This document shows, in pieces, positions 20,665 through 22,650 of a stretch of DNA of 64,000 nucleotides. Position 1 is the first letter of the stretch, and every line of letters begins with the position of its first letter. This DNA is from an archaeon. Its GTDB lineage: Archaea; Thermoproteota; Nitrososphaeria; Conexivisphaerales; UBA164. Position numbers and translations under genes: made by a program. The stretch covers positions 56,942 to 120,941 of the forward strand of contig JAJYTP010000002.1 of NCBI GenBank assembly GCA_021792955.1, in the 5' to 3' direction. The notes below the pieces were generated by a model. That model ran no database searches. It was not told the origin of the DNA and saw nothing but the letters and a program-made list of their open reading frames with translations.

Positions 20665-20871
20665 TTGAATCGCATAAGGAAGATTTCCACCGAACTGTTG
20701 GTAAAATATCCGACTAAATTTACAGAGAGCTTTGATTCAAATAAGCTAGCTCTCAATGAGCTTGCCGATATAACTTCGAAGAACCTGAGAAATGAGCTTG
20801 CGGGGTATATAACTAAAAAGATTAAGATGTCTCGGAGAGTTATAGAGGAATCACAAGATGGACAGGAGTAA
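20665..20871 (+). CDS. rps17e: Ribosomal protein eS17 (S17e)
   Basis: RKISTELLVKYPTKFTESFDSNKLALNELADITSKNLRNELAGYITKKIK matches the S17e pattern. Confidence 0.9.
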   Translation: MNRIRKISTELLVKYPTKFTESFDSNKLALNELADITSKNLRNELAGYITKKIKMSRRVIEESQDGQE

Positions 20872-21706
20872 TGTTCTGGACGCGGATGGTTTTAAGATAA
20901 ACTTAATGCTGATGCCGCTTAAGAACATCAGAATTCATGAAGAGGTGCTTCCCAACTATCTTTCCGATCTGACCGAATCTATAAGACAAAGCGGAGTGCA
21001 GCTAGATCCTATAATTGCAGATATTAAGACAGGAATCGCGCTAGATGGTATGCATCGGATAGAGTCAATCAGAAAACTGGAGTGTAAAAGGATAATGGTT
21101 GCAGGGGTTGACTACTCCGATCCCCGTATAACGCTAAAGAGGTGGCTTCGTTCTGTAAAACTTCCCGCAGGGATATTTGATGAATTACGGTATAATTTAC
21201 AATTAACCAGGGCTAGTAGCATGGAAGAAGCGAGGTCGTTAGTCGATTCAGGGGCATCACCGATAGCCGTACTAAGCGAGGAGGAATCGTTTATTACATC
21301 TATAAAGGCACAAGGGCTTGAATATTTTAAACTGGTAAGAAGGTTTGACGCGTTGACCCACGGTCTAACTATTTCTTCAATACTCGATATAAATCTAAAG
21401 GAATATATTGATGGGGGTTACAAGGTCCTTTATGTTCCCACTCCTAAAAAGGATGATGTTATATTTTCCGGCATGAGTGGAACGCTATTTCCCCCGAAGT
21501 CCACACGTCATTTGATACCGCTCAGGCCGGTTAACGTTATGTGCCCGCTCGACCTGCTTAAAGGAAGGCTTGCGGACCATGAAGCTGAAGAAAGATTTAA
21601 CGAACTGCTTTCAACCAAATCGCGGTCTGAGCTACCGCCCGGTTCAGAATACAAGGGCAGGACCTACGAGGAGCGATTGACGGTATTTAACGATAGGCAA
21701 AGCTAA
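20858..21706 (+). CDS. ParB-like protein, candidate SerK-type ADP-dependent serine kinase
   Basis: LPNYLSDLTESIRQSGVQLDPIIADIKTGIALDGMHRIESIRKL; ParB-fold with substrate-type DGMHR; overlaps rps17e stop. Confidence 0.6.
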   Translation: MDRSNVLDADGFKINLMLMPLKNIRIHEEVLPNYLSDLTESIRQSGVQLDPIIADIKTGIALDGMHRIESIRKLECKRIMVAGVDYSDPRITLKRWLRSVKLPAGIFDELRYNLQLTRASSMEEARSLVDSGASPIAVLSEEESFITSIKAQGLEYFKLVRRFDALTHGLTISSILDINLKEYIDGGYKVLYVPTPKKDDVIFSGMSGTLFPPKSTRHLIPLRPVNVMCPLDLLKGRLADHEAEERFNELLSTKSRSELPPGSEYKGRTYEERLTVFNDRQS

Positions 21707-21707
21707 A

Positions 21708-22340
21708 TTGAAAATAAAGCTTCTAGGCAGCCTTTCCTACAAGGGCCGGACAAGGTTCAATGTAAGGACACAGGGCCCCATCACGCTTAAGGCCCTATTA
21801 AAAAGGATACAGAATGGGGAACTGACCCCGGGAAACCCTAATCTGATCGTCTTCATAAATGGCGTCGAATTCCACATGCTGGGCGGTTATGATGCCCTTG
21901 TCAGCGTATCGGATGAGGTAACAATACTCCCAGCAGCTCACGGCGGCTCTGGCTTCAGCGTCCGAATATTTGATGATGACGCGTATATCATAGCCCAAAA
22001 GGGCGTCATAAGTGTCAGGTGCAGTCGCAGTTGCCTCCGGTATATGGGTCTCGTCTATTTTACGGCTTTGCAGACCTGGCACGCTCTTGCGAACGACGAA
22101 CTGATAGCCAAGAAGCCTGAAGTGGACTTCCTAATGAGGTTGTCACGCCAAAGGAGAATATCATTGGCCATAAAAAGATGCGGAGCTGAGGGCAAGCCGA
22201 ATAATGATGTAGTAACTGTGAGCTTCGGAGAGTATGACAAGATTGATCTGATGACGTCGTCCAAGAACATTGAAATCTCACCTGAAACCGATGAAGATAC
22301 GCTTATAATGAGTGAAGAAAGCGCGTTAACTACCATCTAG
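21708..22340 (+). CDS. Urm1/MoaD/SAMP-like ubiquitin-fold domain fused to Cgi121-like KEOPS subunit
   Basis: N-terminus MKIKLLG...DEVTILPAAHGG is ubiquitin-fold sulfur-carrier/modifier-like; C-terminus YMGLVYFTALQTWHALANDELIAKKPEVDFLMRLSRQRRISLAIKRCGAEG is Cgi121-like. Confidence 0.65.
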   Translation: MKIKLLGSLSYKGRTRFNVRTQGPITLKALLKRIQNGELTPGNPNLIVFINGVEFHMLGGYDALVSVSDEVTILPAAHGGSGFSVRIFDDDAYIIAQKGVISVRCSRSCLRYMGLVYFTALQTWHALANDELIAKKPEVDFLMRLSRQRRISLAIKRCGAEGKPNNDVVTVSFGEYDKIDLMTSSKNIEISPETDEDTLIMSEESALTTI

Positions 22341-22371: not shown

Positions 22372-22650
22372 ATGTCGGTTATGGACAAAAAATACGATGT
22401 TCAAGTAAAGACAAAGGATAAGGCTGCGCGGATACCCAAGGAGGTCATATCGAAGGCCAAGATGGGTCTAAGCGGGAAGATGATAGCAGCAATGAAAAAG
22501 GAGATCGTAGATTGTCCATTGGTCAAGGAAGAGGTTCCATTCCTGTACTGCTTTACCTGCCCATCATATATACGGAGGGTAAAGGGCGTAGTGCACTGCG
22601 CTGCTATCAAGGGCCCATATGGTAGCATGGGAGCAGAGGCCACAGCTTAG
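22372..22650 (+). CDS. Small cysteine-containing protein, unknown
   Basis: Conserved-looking CPLVKEEVPFLYCFTCPSYIRRVKGVVHC; possible metal site. Confidence 0.55.
   Translation: MSVMDKKYDVQVKTKDKAARIPKEVISKAKMGLSGKMIAAMKKEIVDCPLVKEEVPFLYCFTCPSYIRRVKGVVHCAAIKGPYGSMGAEATA

Follow-up and report, generated by a model that had tools for sequence, protein, structure and literature searches.

An archaeal Urm1-type ubiquitin-like domain fused to a Cgi121-like KEOPS subunit, with a conserved internal HGG motif

The gene cluster and the two domains of the fusion protein

The window analysed here, a stretch of 64,000 nucleotides of archaeal DNA, carries a gene cluster that opens with ribosomal protein eS17 (S17e) and includes a gene encoding a ubiquitin-like (Ubl) domain joined in frame to a Cgi121-like domain (Table 1). 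The sequence-only reading had placed this gene in a tight operon with S17e; the link stands, direct adjacency does not, as a SerK/SbnI-like gene lies in between. That gene overlaps S17e by 14 nt and stops 1 nt ahead of the fusion gene, the TTG start of which sits one base past this stop. Its match to the SerK/SbnI-like (free serine kinase/ParB-like) family is far under the family cut-off. The product of the small downstream gene shows a possible Cys motif, and its position does not imply membership of the Ubl-Cgi121 system.

The S17e-Ubl(-Cgi121) neighbourhood recurs across the class. S17e is immediately upstream of the Ubl(-Cgi121) gene in the fetched loci of families f7, f10 and f2, contig ends excepted, while a SerK-like gene also stands between S17e and the Ubl gene in families f4 and f11.

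Table 1. Genes of the cluster and parts of the fusion protein, in window coordinates
Feature	Position	Strand	Remarks
eS17 (S17e) ribosomal protein gene, at the head of the cluster	20665-20871	+	Pfam E 7.8e-12
SerK/SbnI-like gene	20858-21706	+	NCBIfam SerK E 2.8e-16, 59 of 380 bits
Ubl-Cgi121 fusion gene	21708-22340	+	210 aa; TTG start 21708, stop 22338-22340
Urm1-type ubiquitin-like domain, residues 1-80, ending in HGG (78-80)	21708..21947	+	NCBIfam Urm1_like; Foldseek to Urm1/MoaD; HGG invariant
Internal HGG motif, residues 78-80, presumed processing/activation site	21939..21947	+	Invariant columns; pLDDT <50 at 78-81
Residues 81-100: rapidly evolving linker leading into the Cgi121 part	21948..22007	+	dN/dS 1.1 (few sites)
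Cgi121-like domain, residues 101-210	22008..22337	+	NF011465; PDB profile matches; Foldseek; conserved CCA-contact positions
Small gene, 92 aa, conserved in the genus	22372-22650	+	No Pfam/NCBIfam match; same place in G006 and G007

Both domain assignments of the sequence-only reading, a Urm1-like beta-grasp in residues 1-80 followed by a Cgi121-like domain, are borne out by independent lines of evidence. Residues 35-80 match the NCBIfam model Urm1_like (NF053661, E 7e-4) and residues 121-179 the Cgi121 model (NF011465, E 8.9e-9; 35.5 bits, slightly below the 40-bit cut-off), and Pfam gives weak CGI-121 and Urm1 matches. Taken as a single sequence, the protein thus stays under threshold with each NCBIfam model, yet the matches are specific; both models are matched by 32/32 fused homologues (best E 8.7e-47 and 6.7e-8). 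A family profile compared with the PDB finds the Cgi121 proteins PF0523 (E 3e-9) and MjCgi121 (3e-8) together with several Urm1/SAMP chains.

The AlphaFold2 model (mean pLDDT 80, pTM 0.55) contains two confident domains, between which pLDDT falls below 50 at residues 78-81, spanning the HGG. The confident core of the Cgi121-like domain covers residues ~100-180, and its C-terminal helix is of low confidence. With this predicted structure, the top Foldseek matches are exclusively Cgi121 folds (best 1zd0, 4xah, 8up5 and 3enh) and Urm1/MoaD folds (best 2k9x, 1jwb and 1wgk; beta-grasp also 4wwm), so that both expected folds were recovered.

Cgi121 binds the tRNA CCA end for the KEOPS complex (PMC7718258). 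The window protein resembles the archaeal Cgi121 proteins MJ0187 and PF0523 in fold and in three of the five CCA-contact positions compared: K56, I72 and G80 of MjCgi121 are conserved as K135, I151 and G159. It differs from them in its N-terminal Ubl and in two substitutions, Gln71 to Arg150 and Met60 to Val139.

A profile search of the window's genome, which is 73% complete, found no second Cgi121; the only further Pfam match, at C2:19624 (E 0.02), is an ACT-domain protein. Other Ubls of the MoaD/ThiS type are present, as two further ThiS-type genes (C12 and C18). Separate translation of Cgi121 from a usual start codon inside the window gene is ruled out, since the two genus g1 sequences checked contain no in-frame ATG, GTG or TTG from HGG80 to residue 113. 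In the related fusion of G010, GTG/TTG codons at 100-104 could provide such a start.

Fused and split relatives and the invariant HGG motif

Fused and separate forms of the pair occur side by side in the window's own family, f1. The genes are fused in g1 (the window and two other genomes) and g4 (G010), and split in g2 (five genomes) and in G009 of g3, where the gene pair overlaps by 4 nt. Across the class, the fused form is verified in f7, f10 (g37) and f2 and the split form in f4, f5, f9, f11 and f12; the Ubl and Cgi121 genes of split relatives mostly overlap or abut. A 48-row tree requires four changes between the fused and split states, at least three of them forced by well-supported branches; the tree is unrooted and counts gains and losses of the fusion alike. 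All 24 f7 proteins in it are fused. One f2 genome, G011, has a pair of similar Ubl-Cgi121 fusions, each on its own contig (L112, L113); they are either paralogues or a strain mixture (4% contamination).

Overlapping separate genes in relatives mean that a single indel could mimic a fusion, and an assembly or sequencing artefact has to be considered for this reason. This explanation carries practically no probability and is already refuted: the same frame is conserved across the three g1 genomes, at dS ~0.28 and under purifying selection, which excludes an assembly frameshift, the fusion recurs in other families, and a Ubl-Cgi121 fusion has been in print since 2010. The fusion in the window is genuine.

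The internal, Urm1-like HGG pointed out from the sequence is conserved throughout. It is present in 68/68 relatives examined (52 fused, 16 split), with no loss of the GG in orthologues; the fusion itself is not universal. In all 52 fused proteins the motif lies at the domain junction, internal to the encoded chain. An alignment of 32 fused sequences has nine invariant columns among 199 well-filled ones, three of which are H78-G79-G80 (chance for three given columns ~6e-5, a figure that ignores kinship and so overstates the significance). Between the window gene and an 87%-identical relative, dN/dS is 0.16 in the Ubl, ~1.1 in linker residues 81-100, where sites are few, and 0.19 in the Cgi121 part. 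Among the split Ubls, 7/16 end exactly at the HGG and 9/16 carry 2-4 extra residues, which suggests that trimming is needed there too. The junction of the window protein reads Gly-Gly-Ser.

Partner enzymes and genomes without a detectable E1

The genome of the window encodes the partners expected of a Urm1/SAMP-type protein. It has one ThiF/E1 (C21:22469, E 4e-60), probably the cognate E1 of the Ubl, an NcsA-type thiolase (C2:75957) and two Prok-JAB/JAMM proteins (C16 and C21) with an intact HxHPx5-6SxxD motif. In sister genera of family f1, the E1 gene adjoins Ubl-Cgi121 and shares an operon with the split genes: Ubl, Cgi121, E1 and endonuclease III are consecutive in g2, g3 and g4. In the window's genome the E1-endonuclease III pair lies apart, at C21. 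A histidine-phosphatase (PGAM-like) gene precedes Ubl-Cgi121-E1-Nth in g2 and g4 (L020, L021, L022, L023 and L027), with another PGAM-like gene close by on the opposite strand. Elsewhere, the E1 of G022 (f7; L155:577-1899) and a relative in G050 carry an N-terminal ThiS-like Ubl joined at an internal AGG-S, and add a second fused Ubl with a diglycine inside the chain.

JAMM proteins occur in 239/251 genomes of the class, and the presence of JAMM is weak evidence because it is nearly universal. All 12 genomes without JAMM come from lineages with no verified fusion; by hand count JAMM is absent from 12/64 genomes in these lineages and 0/187 in the others, a difference that is confounded with ancestry, given that the losses cluster by family and that only g37 is verified as fused in f10. 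The co-occurrence of JAMM and the fusion is likewise weak evidence.

Family f7, which from its gene content and the 2010 description appears to be Nitrosopumilaceae-like, provides a natural comparison. No E1 was detectable with Pfam and an f7 E1 query in 19 f7 genomes that carry the fusion, ten of them at least 96% complete. Single metagenome-assembled genomes may miss an E1 gene; ten near-complete ones hardly would. The 19 are mostly small and near-complete (among them G042, G067, G077, G083, G097, G104, G109, G126, G161 and G228); G117 was dropped from the set, as it has part of an E1 gene at the end of a contig. Mapped on the fusion-protein tree, E1 presence changes eight times, with at least three changes forced. 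These streamlined genomes appear to have lost E1 repeatedly; they retain the fusion, always with its HGG, as well as JAMM (19/19) and the tRNA thiolase NcsA (18/19). In these lineages at least, the HGG is retained for something independent of a recognisable ThiF-type E1, and the simplest carrier model meets its strongest counter-evidence in the E1-less genomes. One conjecture, which we consider rather unlikely, extends this to the motif in general: its job would need no canonical E1, and the Ubl would be either a KEOPS-tethered element or the substrate of a so far unrecognised charging enzyme, and would connect t6A synthesis with thiolation or with protein turnover.

Proposed processing, alternatives and relation to known fusions

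The fusion type itself has been known since 2010; the window protein adds an example from another family of the class. By the account of Makarova & Koonin 2010 (PMC2948915), a Ubl-Cgi121 fusion next to ribosomal protein S17 occurs in Thaumarchaea and was conserved in every thaumarchaeal genome available at the time. The window protein shares the two domains and the S17 link. It differs in having split relatives in its own family, in a shorter Cgi121 part (~110-125 residues versus 150-170) and in the SerK-like gene that separates it from S17e. The literature searched yielded no experimental study of a Ubl-Cgi121 fusion. New here are the universality of the HGG in the 68 fused or split relatives beside a fast-changing linker; the two fused and two split genera of f1, with a trait that changed at least three times; the f1 operon of E1 with split genes and the short extensions after the HGG in 9/16 split Ubls; the two JAMM proteases, E1 and NcsA of one genome; and the 19 Nitrosopumilaceae-like genomes that retain HGG and JAMM without a detectable E1.

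The interpretation we put forward, with about even confidence, is that the protein is made as a precursor and that a cut after Gly80 sets free Cgi121 and a carrier of the Urm1 type. The precursor would consist of a beta-grasp sulfur carrier/modifier (residues 1-80, ending in -HGG) in frame with the KEOPS subunit, and a JAMM metalloprotease would most likely make the cut. The freed -HGG protein might then be activated by a UbaA-type E1 and supply sulfur to NcsA-type tRNA thiolation, be conjugated to proteins, or both. The freed Cgi121 would join Bud32-Kae1-Pcc1 and hold the tRNA CCA end for t6A synthesis. Through the fusion, the carrier, which serves wobble-base thiolation, and the subunit, which serves modification of position 37, would be produced in a fixed 1:1 ratio.

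Several observations point to such a precursor: the HGG is invariant, next to a variable linker and within a flexible link; the separate genes of split relatives overlap or abut and share an operon with E1 in f1; E1, NcsA and two intact-motif JAMM proteins are encoded in the genome; and the 12 JAMM-less genomes all fall in lineages without a verified fusion. Precedents for cleavage also exist. In M. tuberculosis MoaX, a MoaD-like domain with an internal GG followed by MoaE, the cut between Gly82 and Ser83 is required for activity (PMC4326299), and a Deinococcus MoaD-MoaE fusion is cut by DRJAMM (PMC8832034). Like MoaX, the window protein begins with a beta-grasp sulfur carrier, has an internal GG with a Ser next to it, and continues into a working partner; unlike in MoaX, the partner is a KEOPS subunit and not MoaE of molybdopterin synthase, and cleavage, established for MoaX, is predicted here. 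Urm1/SAMP proteins offer a parallel in their beta-grasp fold, in the HGG that forms the tail of eukaryotic Urm1, and in the E1 and NcsA of the genome, with E1 in the operon in sister genera; the window HGG, however, is internal to the encoded chain and would be terminal only after a cut. Against the precursor stand the 19 E1-less fusion genomes that keep the HGG, the fact that the precedents concern MoaD-MoaE and not Cgi121, and the 73% completeness of the window's genome.

The same E1-less genomes, with their retained HGG, NcsA and JAMM, speak for a protein that stays whole, in which the Ubl is a fixed extra KEOPS domain to which a partner (tRNA, ribosome, proteasome, JAMM or NcsA) would dock, with the HGG as part of the docking surface. 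The stability of the fusion throughout the f7 proteins of the tree fits this explanation, and coordinated KEOPS/Ubl function is also proposed in the account of Makarova and Koonin (PMC2948915). A purely internal docking motif leaves unexplained why split relatives keep the HGG at, or within a few residues of, a free C terminus, and AlphaFold2 predicts a disordered tail; an uncut protein is a tentative alternative.

Another possibility, which seems improbable, is that the linear fusion mimics a permanently Ubl-modified KEOPS subunit, with removal of the tag by JAMM switching KEOPS activity or stability. Regulation of KEOPS by SAMPylation was suggested in the same account (PMC2948915), and linear SAMP fusions are cut by JAMM proteins (PMC8832034), but the split lineages make the two proteins unlinked.

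The fusion is now testable, as the family combines an invariant cleavage-like motif, close relatives that encode the two proteins separately, and genomes in nature that either have or lack E1. It bears on the coupling of tRNA thiolation with t6A synthesis and on the origin of ubiquitin-like precursors in archaea.
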